Shown: positions 13,916 through 51,375 of the stretch, piece after piece
Layout: each line of letters starts with the position of its first letter
How positions within the stretch are numbered: position 1 is the stretch's first letter
The notes under the pieces: model-generated
The model's database searches: none
What the model was told of the DNA's origin: nothing
Seen by the model: only the letters and a program-made list of their open reading frames with translations
Made by a program: the position numbers and the translations under genes
DNA from: Kineosporia babensis
GTDB taxonomy: Bacteria > Actinomycetota > Actinomycetes > Actinomycetales > Kineosporiaceae
Reading direction: 5' to 3'
DNA length: 64,000 nt
NCBI RefSeq assembly: GCF_021129305.1
Contig: NZ_JAJOMB010000001.1
Location: forward strand, 186,001 to 250,000

Positions 13916-13964
13916 AACGAAGGACGCCGGTGCGCACCTCGGGTGCGCACCGGCGTCCTTCGTT
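13916..13964 (+). terminator. Strong hairpin terminator of the RR-HEAT-GT operon
   Basis: A perfect stem of 22 bp (ACGAAGGACGCC and so on, 13917-13938 against 13942-13963) with a 3-nt loop, extended by one A-T pair, lies 9 bp after the glycosyltransferase stop and is followed by a short T-run. This is one of the longest perfect stems in the window. Confidence 0.85.
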
Positions 13965-23992: not shown

Positions 23993-24047
23993 CCAATTGA
24001 GGACGTTGGTGAGCCGACATTGTCGGCTCACCAACGTCCTCAATTGG
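23993..24047. terminator. 55-bp perfect palindrome between convergent genes
   Basis: Arms of 27 bp are exact inverted copies around a single central T. Each arm begins with CCAATTGAGGACGTT. It sits 3 bp after the hydrolase stop and 15 bp before the end of the convergent DHH gene, so it can terminate both strands. The arm sequence closely resembles that of the hairpin at 51329-51375, pointing to a repeated element rather than an ordinary terminator. Confidence 0.85.
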
Positions 24048-29791: not shown

Positions 29792-29830
29792 ACCGATCAG
29801 CCGGAGCACTTCGCTTTCCGGCTGATCGGT
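29792..29830. terminator. Hairpin terminator after the sigma/partner array
   Basis: A perfect 14-bp stem (ACCGATCAGCCGGA and its complement) with an 11-nt loop lies just past the stop of the last membrane partner gene at 29844 and before the oxidoreductase start, the right place to end the minus-strand array transcript. Confidence 0.8.
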
Positions 29831-29843
29831 GGTGAAGGGCGGA

Positions 29844-30947
29844 TCAGCCGCATCCGCCGAACTCGTTGAGCGGGCCGGACAGCGACTCCCCAGCGGCGGC
29901 CGCGTCGCCCACCTGCCAGTACTTGTCGACCAGCTCGCCCTCGCCCGCCCCCTGCGGGTCAGCCTTCTCGATCGCCCGCATCTTCATCAGCACCGGCCAG
30001 GTGCGGCTACCGGCAAGCGCTTCGCCGGCCTCGTCGAGTCTGGCTTCGTCGCCACTGCTGCGGGCGTCCTGGAACTGGCGGACCCAGCCGCAGAACAACG
30101 CGTCGGCCACCGGCGAGGCGTACTGGTAGTAGCCGGTGGTGAAAGCAGCGGGGAAATCGCCGGCCTCGACCCCGTCCGGAACCGGGACCTCGCTCAGCAT
30201 CTGCCGGGCCGCGGCGACGGCCTCGTCCGGGAAGATCGTGTCCGACGGCAGCGCCTCGGTCCACTCCTGCTCGCTGACCGGCCGCAGCTGCGACAGCACC
30301 TGGGTGAACTCGTCCAGGCTCTTCATGTCGGTAGCGAAAAAATCCAGGTAGACCGGGGAGCTCCCCGGGGGCAGCATCGCCATGAAGTTGCCGTCGTGCC
30401 GCTTGAACACCGCGGCCTCAGCACCGAGCAACTCCATGGAACTGAGCTCGGAAGAAGGATCGAAGCCGTCTCTCTGGGCTTCGTACAGCTCGGGGTACCT
30501 CTCTGCCTTGCCCCAGTGCACGATCAGGGCACTCCCCTTCGGCCCAAGGAAGTCTTGGAACCCCTCCAGCTCGGACTGCCCCAGCGAACTCGGTTCCCAA
30601 TCCGGATCGTCCAGGACCAGGAACGGATTGCCCGCTGAGTTCACCGATCCGGCCGCCGGCACCACCGCGCTCTCCTCCTCTCGATCGAACACGGCCATCG
30701 GTAGTGCCACCGCTACCACCGCAGCCACCGCCGCGGCCGCCCCCAGCAGCCACCGGGCCGGCTTGCGCCTGGGCTTCAGAGCAACCACCGGGATCTCGAC
30801 CGCATCCACATCATGCTTCTGGACAACGGGTTTCGACATGATCTCCTCCAGGAGTTCCTGCCCGGCCTCACGAAGCATGCCCTCCAACCGGTCACCGCCG
30901 TCGAACTCGATCTGCTTCAGCAGGCGGTCGATCTCGTGGTCGTTCAT
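29844..30947 (-). CDS. Membrane partner of ECF sigma factor, copy A
   Basis: The 367-residue protein has a cytoplasmic N-terminus (about 1-65) with EAGQELLEEIMS, one membrane helix (about 66-88, WLLGAAAAVAAVVAVALP) and an extracytoplasmic domain of about 280 residues. The latter begins with NPFLVLDDPDWE and contains only two cysteines, one in FCGWV and one in the terminal GGCG. Two paralogues lie upstream at 31566 and 33245 with the same plan. It overlaps its sigma gene by 4 bp (ATGA). Position and topology suggest an anti-sigma factor, but the zinc-binding HxxxCxxC motif of ZAS anti-sigmas is absent. It resembles actinobacterial CU044_5270-type proteins. Confidence 0.7.
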   Translation of the reverse strand: MNDHEIDRLLKQIEFDGGDRLEGMLREAGQELLEEIMSKPVVQKHDVDAVEIPVVALKPRRKPARWLLGAAAAVAAVVAVALPMAVFDREEESAVVPAAGSVNSAGNPFLVLDDPDWEPSSLGQSELEGFQDFLGPKGSALIVHWGKAERYPELYEAQRDGFDPSSELSSMELLGAEAAVFKRHDGNFMAMLPPGSSPVYLDFFATDMKSLDEFTQVLSQLRPVSEQEWTEALPSDTIFPDEAVAAARQMLSEVPVPDGVEAGDFPAAFTTGYYQYASPVADALFCGWVRQFQDARSSGDEARLDEAGEALAGSRTWPVLMKMRAIEKADPQGAGEGELVDKYWQVGDAAAAGESLSGPLNEFGGCG

Positions 30948-31513
30948 GCTTTCCCCTCCTTCGGCACGGACGCTGTTCGGACACCTGGTTCATGTCTGCG
31001 GGCCCCACGATCGTTACGGCTGAGCCGTTTTCGCATTCTGGCGCGGGCCCGGGACAGCCGGGTCCGCACCACCTCGGAGCGCAGGCCGAGGGCGACCGCG
31101 ATCTCCGTGGGGGTCAGCTGTTCCCAGACCGTCAGCTCCAGCACCTCGCGATCGTGGTGCTCCAGGGCAGCCAGGGCCTCGCGCGTCGCTCTCTCCTCGA
31201 GGAGGTCTGCGGTGGGGTCGTAGCGGGTGAGGTGCTCACGCAACTCCAACTGCAGGCGCTCGCCCAGCCGCTCCCGGCGCTGCTCGACCCGGCCGTGATT
31301 GGCCAGCACGTTGCGGGCGACTCCATAGAGCCAAAGACGCGCCTGATCGCCTGACGGCATCTCGTCGTAGCGCCGCCAGGCGATCAGGAAGGTCTCGGCC
31401 ACCACGTCGGCCGCGTCTTCCGGGCTCTTCACCCGGCGCAACGCGTACCTCAGCAGCAACCCGAAGTTGTCGGCATACAGACGGCGGTAGGCCTCTGCGG
31501 TCGTGTTCCCCAC
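30944..31513 (-). CDS. ECF sigma factor, copy A
   Basis: The protein of about 189 residues has sigma region 2 (YRRLYADNFGLLLRYALRRV, DAADVVAETFLIAWRR) and region 4 (LEHHDREVLELTVWEQLTPTEIAVALGLRSEVVRTRLSRAR, in consecutive segments), without extra domains. The GTG at 31513 was chosen because the same codon in all three paralogues sits exactly 36 bp downstream of a TGTCAC motif, implying leaderless transcripts; a GTG at 31537 would add eight residues but falls inside the promoter element. It is translationally coupled to its membrane partner. The triggering signal is unknown. Confidence 0.87.
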   Translation of the reverse strand: MGNTTAEAYRRLYADNFGLLLRYALRRVKSPEDAADVVAETFLIAWRRYDEMPSGDQARLWLYGVARNVLANHGRVEQRRERLGERLQLELREHLTRYDPTADLLEERATREALAALEHHDREVLELTVWEQLTPTEIAVALGLRSEVVRTRLSRARARMRKRLSRNDRGARRHEPGVRTASVPKEGKA

Positions 31514-31560
31514 ACCTGACTCGTGTACGGCCACCACCTGATCGTGACAGCGGCCGGACC
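31514..31560 (-). promoter_or_regulatory. Conserved leaderless promoter of sigma cassette A
   Basis: The sequence has CCGGCCGCTGTCAC and a GTGGCCGTACA block 11 bp further on. TGTCAC occupies -36 to -31 relative to the GTG at 31513, the -35 position if transcription begins at the start codon. Copies B and C have the same elements at the same distances. The dyad flanking them is imperfect here (GGTCCGGCC against GGCCGTACA). Confidence 0.65.
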
Positions 31561-31565
31561 GAATT

Positions 31566-32639
31566 TCAGCCGAGGTCGTCGCAGCCCAGGTTCGACCGGT
31601 ACCCGTCCACGCTCTTGCGCTGCGAGACCGCCTTCACGTACTGCTCGGCGCCGATCGGGTCGGGGCCGTCCTCGCGCCGGACCGCCTCCCAGTTCGGGCT
31701 GCCGGCCAGGGCCTGGTCGGCCGCCGCCATGGCAGGCTCGTCGTCCGTCTCCCAGGCCTGCTCGTAGTTCTCCAGCCAGGCGCAGGTGGCCCGCTGGATC
31801 ACCCCGAACTCGACGTGGTAGCGACTGTTGGTGAAGCCGGAGACGAACGCCGAGGCCGGCAGCCCTTCCGGCAACGGCACCCCAGCCAGGATTTCCTCGG
31901 TGTAGGAGGGGTTCTCGTCCGGGGTGATCACCGAGTCGGGCATCGCCGCGAACCACTCCTCGGCGGGCACCTGGCGCAACTGCTCGAGCAGCCCGGCGAA
32001 GTTCTTACGGCCGCCGGTGGAGCTGCCCCGGACTTCCAGGAAGATGTCGCTCTGAGGGGCGAGCACTTCGAACTCGCCCTTGCCGTAGTCGAACCGATCC
32101 GCATTGGCACCGAACAGCGTGATCGGTTCCGGGTCGGAGACGTCCAGCCGATCCTCGTAACGGCTCTCGTAGGCGTCCATCGTCGTCCAACTGACCTGCA
32201 GACTCTGCCCTGTCTCCGGCTGCTGGAAGGAGATTTCGCCATTGTCCTCGGCGCTCTCGTTCACATGGTCGATCTCCCAGCCCGGAGCGTCCAGCAGAAC
32301 GTAAGGATTCTTGGTGTGAGGGAGTTGGGGAGTCGGGGTAGGCGCCTGCGTGGCCGGAGTGACCGGGACCACCGCTCCCCCACCCCCGAACACCACGGTC
32401 GGCACGACCACGGCAGCCACGACCGCGGCCGCCACCCCGACCCAGGCCAGCCGGCGCCTCGCCAGCGACCACGTTCGGGTGGGCAGGGGCACGGCCTGAT
32501 CGGAGCGCCCCGGCTCGGCCGGTGAGTGCACGGACATGATTTCCTCCAGGAGTTCCCGCCCGGCCTCGGCCAGGGCACCGGCCGGAACCGGCGTCGGCTG
32601 GACTTCTCCCAGCAGCCGATCGATCTCGGAATCCTTCAC
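31566..32639 (-). CDS. Membrane partner of ECF sigma factor, copy B
   Basis: The 357-residue paralogue of copies A and C has a cytoplasmic N-terminus with EAGRELLEEIMS, a membrane helix (about 68-90, VGVAAAVVAAVVVPTVV), a Pro/Thr-rich linker (ATQAPTPTPQLP) and an ectodomain opening with NPYVLLDAPGWE. The only cysteines are in ATCAWLENY and near the C-terminus (GCDDLG), matching the two positions in the other copies. ATGA overlap with the sigma gene upstream couples the pair. A role in sensing outside and sequestering the sigma inside is inferred from topology. Confidence 0.7.
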   Translation of the reverse strand: MKDSEIDRLLGEVQPTPVPAGALAEAGRELLEEIMSVHSPAEPGRSDQAVPLPTRTWSLARRRLAWVGVAAAVVAAVVVPTVVFGGGGAVVPVTPATQAPTPTPQLPHTKNPYVLLDAPGWEIDHVNESAEDNGEISFQQPETGQSLQVSWTTMDAYESRYEDRLDVSDPEPITLFGANADRFDYGKGEFEVLAPQSDIFLEVRGSSTGGRKNFAGLLEQLRQVPAEEWFAAMPDSVITPDENPSYTEEILAGVPLPEGLPASAFVSGFTNSRYHVEFGVIQRATCAWLENYEQAWETDDEPAMAAADQALAGSPNWEAVRREDGPDPIGAEQYVKAVSQRKSVDGYRSNLGCDDLG

Positions 32640-33190
32640 GGTTTACCCCCTTTCAGCTCGGACTCGGCTCTGACGGCAAGCTCCTGTCCGGCCGGGCCGG
32701 GGGCGTGACACTCCAGTTGGCTGCGCAACCGGGTGCGGGCCCGACGCAGCCGGGTACGGACCACCTCGGGGCTCAGGCCGAGGGCGACCGCGATCTCCGT
32801 GGGGGTCAGCTGTTCCCAGACCGTCAGCTCCAGCACCTCGCGGTCGTTGGGGGCCAGGCGGGCCAGCGCGTCCCGGACATCCACGTTTCCGGCATCGACG
32901 GTGACCGGGTACTCCCGGTGCTCCAGGCGCAGCCGCTGGCCGAGCCTCCGGCGGCGCTGCTCACCCCGCGCGTGATTGGCCAGGACCAGCCGGGCCACGC
33001 CGTAGAGCCACAAACGGCCGTGATCGCCGGGCGGCACCTCACTGCGGCGCCGCCAGGCGACCAGGAACGTCTCCGCCACCAGGTCCGGGGCATCGTCGGA
33101 CTGCCGGACCCGGCGGCGGGCGTAGTTCAGGATGGCTATGAAGTTGTCGGCGTACAGACGACGGAACTCGTCATCGGCAGTGATCCCCAC
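32636..33190 (-). CDS. ECF sigma factor, copy B
   Basis: The protein of about 184 residues has region 2 (FRRLYADNFIAILNYARRRV, DAPDLVAETFLVAWRR) and region 4 (LAPNDREVLELTVWEQL, EVVRTRLRRARTRL). Region 4 is nearly identical to copy A around LTPTEIAVALGL, so the two may read the same promoters. GTG at 33190 was chosen by the conserved 36-bp distance to TGTCAC; GTG 33211 is the alternative. It is coupled to membrane partner B by a 4-bp overlap. Confidence 0.87.
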   Translation of the reverse strand: MGITADDEFRRLYADNFIAILNYARRRVRQSDDAPDLVAETFLVAWRRRSEVPPGDHGRLWLYGVARLVLANHARGEQRRRRLGQRLRLEHREYPVTVDAGNVDVRDALARLAPNDREVLELTVWEQLTPTEIAVALGLSPEVVRTRLRRARTRLRSQLECHAPGPAGQELAVRAESELKGGKP

Positions 33191-33237
33191 GCCCGTCCAG
33201 TGTCCGGCCACCGCCGAAGCGTGACAGCGGCCGGACA
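33191..33237 (-). promoter_or_regulatory. Conserved leaderless promoter of sigma cassette B
   Basis: TGTCCGGCC and GGCCGGACA (33201-33237) form a perfect 9-bp dyad flanking TGTCAC, which lies exactly 36 bp before the GTG at 33190. The upstream edge touches the stop region of partner C, so the whole promoter is packed into the 54-bp intergenic space. Confidence 0.7.
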
Positions 33238-33244
33238 GATTTTC

Positions 33245-34360
33245 TCAGCGGTACTCGCAAAGCGCCCCGAACATGTCCGACCGCTCCATCTTGCGCCCCT
33301 CGGCCATCCAGTCCGCGGTCTCGAAGAACTTCTCCTTGTCGACGATGCCGTAGATCTTGTCCATCGCCGTCCAGTCCCGGGAGCCCTGCATGGCCTCGAC
33401 CGCGCGGGCGACTCCGGCCGCGTCCTGGTTCTTCTGCGCCTTGAGGTACACGTCGGCCCACGCACAACCCACGTCGAGAACCACGTCGTCAGCCAGCACG
33501 CTCAACCGGATCGGCCCCTCCTTCGGCACGCTCACCGCCTTGAAACCGTCGGGAACCTTGACGTCGGCGAGGAGTTCCTGAATCGTCGCGGCCTTGTCGT
33601 CGGGCAAGACGTGGGAATCCGGGAGCGAGGCCATGAACTCCTCCTCGCTGACCTGCTTCAGATCGGCGATTGCCGCGTAGAACTGCTCGCGGGTGTCCAA
33701 ACCGTCGCCGTAGACCATGGCTGTGAGACCGGCGTGCCGGAAGTAGAGTTCGAAGCCGTCCCGGTCGGAGAACTTGGACCGGTCCCACACCGCACCTGGG
33801 CGGCCGAAAATCGTGATCGGCTGCATCCCCATCTCGGTACTGATCGTCGGCGTACCGTCCTCTTCCAGTACTGAGCTGCCCTTCTTGTACTGGATACTCA
33901 GCCTCGCCCCCTTCGTGGAATAACCGATATCGTCGGAATCAGCGCCCGCAGTCTTCCAGTCCGGGTTGTCCATCAGGAAGTACGGCATCCCGTCGCCGGT
34001 CAGCGGTTCCTGCGGAAGCCCGGGAGTACCGGACTTCTTCACTACCCCAGCCGGTTCGACAGCGGCAGTGTCACGGCCGAAGAACTGCATCGGCAGCGCG
34101 ACCGCCAGGACCACCGCCACCGCGGCCGCCGCCCCCAGCAGCCACCAGGAGCGCCGGGGCGGCCGGCGCCGCACCCCGATCAGCACCACTTCTTCAGCCT
34201 TGAGGTCTTCGGGCTCTGGGTAGGAACTTTCGGGCACAGACATGATGGTCTCCAGGAGGTCCTGCCCGGCCTGGTGAAGAGCAGGGGCCACGAGCGGAAC
34301 CTCGGCCGCCGACCGGGGCTGCGCACCGCGCAACAGCTCGTCGAGTTCTCGGTCGTTCAT
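33245..34360 (-). CDS. Membrane partner of ECF sigma factor, copy C
   Basis: The 371-residue paralogue has an N-terminus with QAGQDLLETIMS, a membrane helix (about 72-95, WWLLGAAAAVAVVLAVALP) and an ectodomain starting with MPYFLMDNPDWK. Its two cysteines (in VGCAWADVY and the final LCEYR) sit where the other copies have theirs. The middle of the ectodomain is more divergent than the ends, as expected if it binds a different signal. It overlaps sigma C by 4 bp. The function as anti-sigma or co-sensor is inferred. Confidence 0.7.
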   Translation of the reverse strand: MNDRELDELLRGAQPRSAAEVPLVAPALHQAGQDLLETIMSVPESSYPEPEDLKAEEVVLIGVRRRPPRRSWWLLGAAAAVAVVLAVALPMQFFGRDTAAVEPAGVVKKSGTPGLPQEPLTGDGMPYFLMDNPDWKTAGADSDDIGYSTKGARLSIQYKKGSSVLEEDGTPTISTEMGMQPITIFGRPGAVWDRSKFSDRDGFELYFRHAGLTAMVYGDGLDTREQFYAAIADLKQVSEEEFMASLPDSHVLPDDKAATIQELLADVKVPDGFKAVSVPKEGPIRLSVLADDVVLDVGCAWADVYLKAQKNQDAAGVARAVEAMQGSRDWTAMDKIYGIVDKEKFFETADWMAEGRKMERSDMFGALCEYR

Positions 34361-34950
34361 GACTTTCCCTCCTTCGGCTCGAGCATCGTCGGAACACCTC
34401 TCACATGTCCGGCCTTCGCGCTTTTGTGACCGTAAAACATCCCTGAAGAATGATTTTCGAGAAGTATGCGCATGCGTTTGCGGGCCCGGGACAGCCGGGC
34501 CCGCACCACCTGGGACGAAAGACCGAGCGCAACAGCGATTTCCCGGGGCGCCAGCTGCTCCCAGACCGCCAGTTCCAGCACCTCACGGTCATGCGGTTCG
34601 AGCTGGGCCATCAGCTCACGCACCGCTCGTACCTCAAGCAGCTCACTGGTCGGATCATGGGTGACCAGGTGCTCGCGCAGCTCCAGGCGCAGCTTCTCAC
34701 CGAGCTGGTGGCGGCGTTGCTCTCCTCGGCCGTGATTGGCCAGAGTCAGCCGGGCCACGCCGAAAAGCCAGAGCCGGGACTCGTCTCCGGGCGGCATCTC
34801 GGCCCGGCGGCGCCAGGCGACCAGAAAGATCTCGGCGACCAGATCGGCGGAGTCGTCCAGGCTGCCGACCCGGCGCAGTGCGTAGGCCAGCATGGCCTGG
34901 AAGTTGTCGGCATACAGACGCCGGAATCGGTCGTCGGCAGAGGTCACCAC
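34357..34950 (-). CDS. ECF sigma factor, copy C
   Basis: The protein of about 197 residues has region 2 (FRRLYADNFQAMLAYALRRV, DSADLVAEIFLVAWRR) and region 4 (LEPHDREVLELAVWEQLAPR, QVVRARLSRARKRM). GTG at 34950 is 36 bp from the TGTCAC motif, as in the other copies; the frame is open further upstream. A tail of about 30 residues ends in LEPKEGKS, similar to PKEGKA in copy A, which also marks common descent. It is the first cassette of the array, directly after the galactose mutarotase gene on the same strand. Confidence 0.87.
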   Translation of the reverse strand: MVTSADDRFRRLYADNFQAMLAYALRRVGSLDDSADLVAEIFLVAWRRRAEMPPGDESRLWLFGVARLTLANHGRGEQRRHQLGEKLRLELREHLVTHDPTSELLEVRAVRELMAQLEPHDREVLELAVWEQLAPREIAVALGLSSQVVRARLSRARKRMRILLENHSSGMFYGHKSAKAGHVRGVPTMLEPKEGKS

Positions 34951-34997
34951 AGAACGCACATGTCCGGCCGCCGTCGTTTTGTGACAGCGGCCGGACA
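34951..34997 (-). promoter_or_regulatory. Conserved leaderless promoter of sigma cassette C
   Basis: TGTCCGGCCGC and GCGGCCGGACA (34961-34997) are perfect 11-bp inverted repeats enclosing TGTCAC, which again lies 36 bp before the chosen GTG. This is the most symmetrical of the three copies. The edge lies 8 bp before the stop of the mutarotase gene. Confidence 0.7.
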
Positions 34998-35005
34998 GAA
35001 GATTC

Positions 35006-51328: not shown

Positions 51329-51375
51329 CCAAGTGGGGACGTTCGCGCTGACTGGGCGCGAACGTCCCCACTTGG
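51329..51375. terminator. 20-bp stem hairpin with GGACGTT core
   Basis: A perfect 20-bp stem (arm CCAAGTGGGGACGTTCGCGC) with a 7-nt loop begins 17 bp past the permease stop. The first 15 bases of the arm match the 55-bp palindrome at 23993 at all but two positions (consensus CCAAKTGRGGACGTT), suggesting a dispersed element that also terminates transcription. Confidence 0.8.

Follow-up and report, generated by a model that had tools for sequence, protein, structure and literature searches.

A candidate two-promoter circuit in three tandem extracytoplasmic function sigma factor cassettes of Kineosporia babensis

How does a soil actinobacterium control a type of stress-signalling sigma factor that it encodes three times in a row, each time with a membrane protein alongside? 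The question is raised by a 64,000-nucleotide stretch of the 9.4-Mb Kineosporia babensis genome (contig NZ_JAJOMB010000001.1, positions 186,001 to 250,000; here called the window), in which three pairs of genes for an extracytoplasmic function (ECF) sigma factor and a membrane partner lie head to tail in the order C, B, A. All three pairs, and every feature located below in the array, are on the minus strand. We consider it likely that each cassette is a self-promoting sigma/anti-sigma unit with two promoters: P1, ahead of the sigma gene, from which a leaderless mRNA would start, and P2, a second copy in the tail of the sigma gene, which a preliminary description of this DNA had missed. Each sigma would probably drive itself and, separately, its presumed anti-sigma factor.

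The sigma genes of cassettes C (34357-34950; GTG start, 197 amino acids), B (32636-33190; 184 amino acids), and A (30944-31513; 189 amino acids) encode proteins that exceed the cut-offs of PF04542, PF08281, and TIGR02937 in all three cases, with Sigma70_r2 and Sigma70_r4_2 as the Pfam domains; for B and A, the longer frames from 33211 and 31537 were searched. Each gene overlaps that of its membrane partner by 4 bp (34357-34360, 32636-32639, and 30944-30947), as had been described. The partners are 371 (C, 33245-34360), 357 (B, 31566-32639), and 367 (A, 29844-30947) amino acids long.

The preliminary description had placed TGTCAC exactly 36 bp before the homologous GTG codons at 31513, 33190, and 34950, which holds in all three cassettes. 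In relatives, the conserved unit is GNNAC-N15-GGACA(T/C), with a spacer that mostly begins with G and about 35 nt between the first G and the start codon. P1 of cassette C reads GTCAC-N15-GGACATG (34959-34985), with the GTG 35 nt after its first base, P1 of B reads GTCAC-N15-GGACACT (33199-33225), and P1 of A reads GTCAC-N15-GTACACG (31522-31548). To call the three promoters identical was too strong, as the second half begins with GTACA in copy A and with GGACA in B and C.

Conservation of P1 was assessed in 75 loci chosen by similarity to the window sigmas, with the promoter ignored, after one duplicate row (L109, the same as L174) had been dropped. They comprise four loci from the window genome, in which a fourth paralogue, D, is located away from the array, together with other Kineosporia, two Actinoplanes, and further genomes of the class. 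The loci are mutually related, so that counts are not independent and P values were not relied on. With at most one mismatch allowed per half and an in-frame ATG or GTG 34 to 36 nt after the first G, P1 was found in 56 of the 75 loci, and the distance was 35 nt in 46 of these. The same rule with 12 other spacers was satisfied in 0 to 8 of 75 loci, and exact halves occurred in 52 loci at a spacer of 15, compared with 3 in total over the 12 other spacers. The corresponding spacer count among P1 loci (51/56) follows by construction, since the rule fixes the spacer, and the counts made without that constraint are the informative ones. An exact site lay within 130 nt ahead of the gene, at any distance, in 60/75 loci; in-frame starts were found 34 to 36 nt from such distance-free sites 50 times, and the runner-up, 62 to 65 nt, occurred 13 times. 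Both Actinoplanes carry the same unit with TGTCAC at -36, bearing out the conservation in related genomes that the preliminary description had called for, and have no comparable dyad around it.

Among the 56 P1 loci, a Shine-Dalgarno-like sequence precedes the sigma start in only 5, compared with 52 for the partner start; the 4-bp overlap of the two genes is found in 52. Because the distance is fixed in other genera as well and the Shine-Dalgarno sequence is missing, a leaderless start of the sigma mRNAs, proposed earlier together with autoregulation, is supported, although the exact start base could fall a few bases before the start codon. Leaderless mRNAs are ordinary in such bacteria; in Actinoplanes sp. 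SE50/110, 1179 of the mapped starts are those of leaderless transcripts (PMC7682106).

Each sigma gene contains a further copy of the promoter, P2, near its 3' end. P2 reads GTCAC-N15-GGACATG in cassette C (34404-34430) and GTCAC-N15-GGACAGG in B (32683-32709), both of which were also matched when the whole genome was searched with the refined pattern. In cassette A, the site deviates (GTAAC-N15-AGACATG; 30991-31017). From the first base of P2 to the end of the sigma stop codon there are 74 nt in all three cassettes. If transcription began 35 nt into P2, the partner would therefore be preceded by a leader of about 35 nt, carrying AAGGAGGG in A and C or AAAGGGGG in B. Allowing at most one mismatch in GGACA and requiring no -35 box, P2 was found in 63/75 loci, with exact GGACA in 55/75, and 55 loci satisfy both the P1 and the P2 rule. 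When the P2 rule was applied to eleven windows elsewhere along the sigma genes, 1 to 11 of 75 loci passed, with exact GGACA in 0 or 1; the sigma-tail windows were fixed after P2 had first been noticed. The exact unit GNNAC-N15-GGACA occurred 45 times in 2,325 tail positions compared with 0 in the 38,025 remaining positions of these reading frames.

P2 encodes Gly-His, and the motif could instead be a protein feature, in which this dipeptide binds the partner or the core polymerase and the likeness to a promoter has arisen by chance. Most tails do keep Gly-His, and the common His codon CAC is used in 14/55. However, the tail Gly-His pairs use the rare codon GGA in 53/55 cases, compared with 3/17 for Gly-His elsewhere (no codon selection), and GNNACG, which played no part in picking P2, stands at a spacer of 15 in 43/55, compared with 4 in total over 19 other spacers. 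Overall, GGA accounts for 65 of 730 Gly codons in P2-bearing genes. Tail glycines not followed by His (last 110 nt) are GGA in 34/169, above that rate and in keeping with a protein feature, so that the GGA excess is partly a trait of the tail. We regard a protein feature with chance likeness to a promoter as very improbable. Judged by the GGA codons of its Gly-His pairs, P2 is conserved as DNA letters, beyond the amino acids alone; if this is right, the conserved tail of the sigma protein would largely be written by the promoter and ribosome site of the partner.

Two further observations concern how far this layout reaches. A more distant ECF gene of the window genome (G000:C10:191154-191707; L013, L131) has GTGAC-N15-GGACAT 35 nt ahead of its ATG, and the P1 layout may extend beyond this sigma group. 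Separately, in five loci of family f28 (L097, L099, L101, L103, and L104), P2 is retained and a leaderless P1 was not found, any GGACA-type site upstream lying mostly 62 to 70 nt before the start.

In the circuit that we propose, a signal at the outside domain of the partner would free the sigma, which would then read two copies of its own promoter. From P1, transcription would begin at the sigma start codon, or no more than a few bases away from it, and yield a leaderless sigma-partner mRNA, giving positive feedback. From P2, within the last ~25 sigma codons, transcription would begin some 35 nt ahead of the partner, yielding a partner-only mRNA with a Shine-Dalgarno site; the extra anti-sigma made in this way would provide negative feedback and shut the response off. 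At the Kineosporia locus, P1 lies within a dyad that is most likely the terminator of the preceding gene, in which case each cassette would be read mainly from its own P1.

The circuit requires the partner to be the anti-sigma of its sigma, which is most likely on the evidence of gene order, overlap, and predicted cytosolic N-terminal helices. In a model of partner C, a pair of short helices at the N terminus is accompanied by a helix at residues 77-87 and an outside domain (mean predicted local distance difference test score, 77); helix 77-87 is taken as the membrane segment, in a stretch modelled at low confidence. The window partners match NF038083 (the CU044_5270 family) with 19.6, 21.0, and 21.4 bits, below the cut-off of 100, and only over their first 103 to 111 residues. 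A Pfam search of the partners at E 0.1 gave no match, and a sequence search of the PDB with a partner profile gave no credible relative (one match, E 0.44). In a fold search of the partner model, residues about 121 to 240 aligned with 3hlz (Z 7.4), LpqN (6.6), RseB (6.3), Mog1 (6.2), and PsbP (5.9); folds like those of Mog1, PsbP, and LpqN and of the C-terminal domain of RseB/MucB align with the outside domain, although Z scores below 8 may reflect a common arrangement only. The absent Pfam match and the low NF038083 scores would suit a co-transcribed envelope protein of unrelated role. We think such a protein unlikely, as the partner is the downstream gene with the 4-bp overlap in 52/56 loci, has cytosolic helices ahead of its predicted membrane segment, and carries a P2 of its own; in addition, one relative (L087) weakly matches an anti-sigma model (E 0.00026; score, 21.1 bits; cut-off, 100). 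In ten aligned partners, two outside-domain cysteines are invariant, and these may form a disulphide or metal site that is part of sensing.

Within a locus, P1 and P2 are more alike than they are between loci. The P1 and P2 -35 pentamers of the same locus agree at 4.13 of 5 positions on average, compared with 3.41 +/- 0.09 for shuffled pairs, and none of 5,000 shuffles reached as high a value. Genomes with four paralogues permit a test within one genome. One of these, another genome of the class (G498; L172, G498:C1:3808500-3824500), holds four paralogous cassettes in about 11 kb. The -35 box is GTGAC in two of them, GTCAC in one, and GCAAC in one; in each, the pentamer is the same at P1 and P2. 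When octamers were compared, the number of the 24 possible pairings that scored at least as high as the true one was 1 in this genome, 1 in the window genome, and 2 in Kineosporia rhizophila. The octamers hint, in a small test, that each sigma reads its own P1/P2 pair. In the window, cross-activation is possible because P1 has the -35 box GTCAC in every cassette of the array. The earlier suggestion of a shared promoter stands to that extent, although the octamer match hints at reading of the own pair.

Could the sigmas have targets elsewhere in the genome? The bare pattern TGTCAC-N28..32-GTG was set aside as a regulon search, since it is unspecific, with 171 genome sites against 109 for the reversed pattern; the genome search that had been recommended gains specificity from flanks and homology. 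The sequence GGCCGCTGTCAC has six exact sites, of which three are the P1 sites; two of the remaining three (L038 and L042) are seemingly in coding DNA. A strict pattern found 8 sites (1 for the control), one of them P2 of the D paralogue and none of the other seven looking promoter-placed. Allowing one mismatch gave 30 sites (9 for the control), of which six were known: three P1, two P2, and the site of the more distant sigma gene (L013/L131). Among the other 24, three (L126, L138, and L142) precede a start codon that is followed by 100 or more codons and has fewer than 60 open codons ahead of it; none of the three has an exact GGACA.

Several results weigh against the two-promoter circuit, in addition to the GGA excess of the tail described above. 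A leaderless P1 is lacking in 19 of the 75 loci and P2 in 12, in both cases mostly where the sigmas are less similar to those of the window, and one set of loci has a leadered P1, with the start codon 62 to 70 nt off. Some of the 55 rows with both sites are weak or were mis-picked by the script (L068, L072, L102, and L160); in L072, the script's P2 is wrong, and by eye the site is CGACATG at 74 nt. In copy A, P1 and P2 each depart from the pattern in their second half, likewise in K. rhizophila, and cassette A may be weak or of different specificity. The within-locus match of P1 and P2 is partly shared ancestry, many loci of family f50 are mismatched (GTAAC at P1, GAGAC at P2), and when pentamers are compared, the pairings that equal or exceed the true one number 2 (G498), 6 (window genome), and 6 (K. 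rhizophila) of 24. Finally, the pattern searches of the window genome yielded no clear third sigma target.

What, then, is the dyad around P1? In cassette C, it forms a hairpin with a 15-bp stem and a 7-nt loop (34961-34997), 8 nt past the stop of the preceding gene, which we take to be galM. That of B (33201-33237) lies 7 nt past the stop of partner C, and a degraded copy in A (31524-31560) lies 5 nt past the stop of partner B. The dyad had been called perfect in B and C. This is so for C, with 11 Watson-Crick pairs per arm, but B is only near-perfect (9 pairs, then G-T); counting G-U pairs, both have the 15-bp stem and 7-nt loop. Across nine aligned dyads, the stem is 96.3% paired over 135 cells and two pairs are changed on both sides, a covariation score reached by 20 of 500 shuffles and so a modest support. 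The set of 56 includes seven Kineosporia A, B, and C sites; six of these have folding energies of -28.9 to -32.3 kcal/mol, and the window copy A has -17.4 kcal/mol. None of the other P1 sites folds below -21.7 kcal/mol (median of the 56, -12.2 kcal/mol), so that dyads of such strength occur only at this Kineosporia locus among the 56. The dyad had been taken as part of the shared promoter; relatives outside the locus have the same promoter without a dyad of that strength.

Eight of the nine dyads start 5 to 20 nt past the stop of a co-directional gene. Downstream of partner A, 13 nt past its stop, lies a 14-bp perfect hairpin (29792-29830) that is likely the terminator of the array. That the P1 dyad is the hairpin terminator of the preceding gene, overlapping P1, has about an even chance of being correct. 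In K. rhizophila, the copy C dyad lies 266 nt past galM with other hairpins predicted between them, which weighs against a pure galM-terminator role and would suit an operator for a dimeric regulator or autorepressor that blocks P1, as would the fact that the dyad spans the -35 box and spacer of P1. We consider an operator doubtful, since the D paralogue, the two Actinoplanes, and the other families have no such dyad at their P1, since the stem is held by the two paired changes and by G-U pairs, and since the positions past co-directional stops resemble that of the final hairpin. Alternatively, the dyad may be a by-product, one hairpin terminator having been carried along by duplication without a role in the cassette. 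The origin of A, B, and C by duplication, the decay of the A dyad, and a dyad left intact in a related genome (G002) beside only about 35 remaining sigma codons are consistent with this, but the paired changes keep the stem in some copies; we rate a by-product as possible, though less than probable. A divergent promoter on the other strand of the dyad was set aside on inspection, the mirrored -35 lacking AC.

The history of the array can be read in part from its relatives, the closest named ones at this locus being K. rhizophila and Kineosporia mesophila. On its two sides, the array is flanked by galM and by a gene that is presumably a Gfo/Idh-like oxidoreductase; the proteins of these flanking genes were matched between genomes. 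Three cassettes occupy this interval in both K. rhizophila and the window genome; G004 and G001 have one each, and G002 has only a remnant. In G001 (L189, G001:C15), the sigma frame is interrupted and the partner is closest to copy B, and the remnant (L190, G002:C45) retains only P1 and the dyad with the sigma codons mentioned above. In the sigma tree, each window gene groups with the K. rhizophila gene of the same cassette (support: A, 87/93; B, 93/93; C, 96/92), the supports for A and B falling below the tree tool's starred level. Because of this grouping, the three cassettes had probably already arisen when the lineage split from that of K. rhizophila. The local duplication that had been recognized earlier is upheld, with the changes that it is probably older than this split and that the ectodomains have been exchanged as well as having diverged.

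Two kinds of exchange leave their mark on the sequences. Region 4 of sigma A (31082-31150) and that of sigma B (32774-32842) share 69 bp letter for letter, compared with a longest identical run of 29 bp in 14 other sigma pairs, and we read this identity as the footprint of gene conversion. The earlier statement that region 4 is almost identical in A and B applies to this stretch; over the whole of region 4, protein identity is 72% for A/B, no closer than the 76% for A/C. Partner A is, by its pattern of identities, a chimera relative to K. rhizophila, the swap having occurred in either lineage. Its residues 1-40 are 84% identical to K. rhizophila copy A and 50% to copy C, and from residue 61 to about 160 identity is 65 to 76% to copy C and 17 to 40% to copy A. 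Outside-domain identities between the window and K. rhizophila are 51% for A-C, 26% for A-A, 23% for C-C, and 49% for B-B.

The type of circuit is already known, and the arrangement described here (the same promoter twice, a leaderless sigma, and a promoter in the sigma tail) would be a variant of it. The experimental precedent comes from Corynebacterium glutamicum, in which rshA alone is transcribed from a promoter that lies inside sigH and is controlled by SigH, an arrangement proposed to shut the response down (PMC3489674). The likeness is a sigma-dependent promoter in the sigma coding region that serves the anti-sigma alone, with the use of P2 by the sigma here being predicted. In C. glutamicum, sigH itself is read from housekeeping promoters, whereas the present cassettes have the same sigma-type promoter before both genes, a predicted leaderless sigma transcript, and a membrane partner with a large outside domain. 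Canonical autoregulated ECF/anti-sigma operons, as outlined in a review (PMC8103513), share co-transcription of sigma and anti-sigma, positive autoregulation, and a -35 ending in AC, features predicted for the present cassettes from DNA sequence. The canonical -35 and -10 boxes given there are AAC and CGT; the cassettes differ in their second box, GGACA(T/C) in place of CGT, and in the extra promoter copy in the sigma tail. Among the matches listed in a search of the open-access literature, with most subscription papers outside that search, none was on this promoter pair, and the ECF classification may already list motifs of the P1 kind.

The arrangement was found in at least four families (f1, f35, f50, and f21) and in Actinoplanes. 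More broadly, the cassettes may represent a conserved actinobacterial module in which the sigma tail has been ceded to the promoter and ribosome site of the anti-sigma, each sigma co-evolves privately with its two promoters, the sensor domain is an exchangeable part that passes from cassette to cassette and leaves the sigma-binding end in place, and, in Kineosporia, the promoter doubles as the preceding terminator and makes the tandem cassettes independent switches; to this wider picture we give an equal chance of being right or wrong. If true, GNNAC-N15-GGACA occurring twice per locus would be a signature by which many uncharacterized ECF systems could be paired with their own promoters from sequence, and the paralogues would offer a natural set of sigmas and promoters with varying -35 boxes (GTCAC, GCAAC, GTGAC, and GGAAC). 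It would also explain a conserved sigma tail as DNA rather than protein, reveal sensor domains exchanged between signalling pairs, and make a specific prediction of how such systems switch off.

Scans of the surrounding DNA concerned other kinds of element. Rfam at its gathering threshold gave no match over 28.5-36.5 kb of the window, and a scan of 28-38 kb for sigma-70 promoters and T-tailed terminators found none. Elsewhere in the window, perfect inverted repeats with stems of 20 to 22 bp and loops of 5 to 11 nt occur at 13916-13964, 23993-24047, and 51329-51375; these are perhaps strong terminators, though unusually long.

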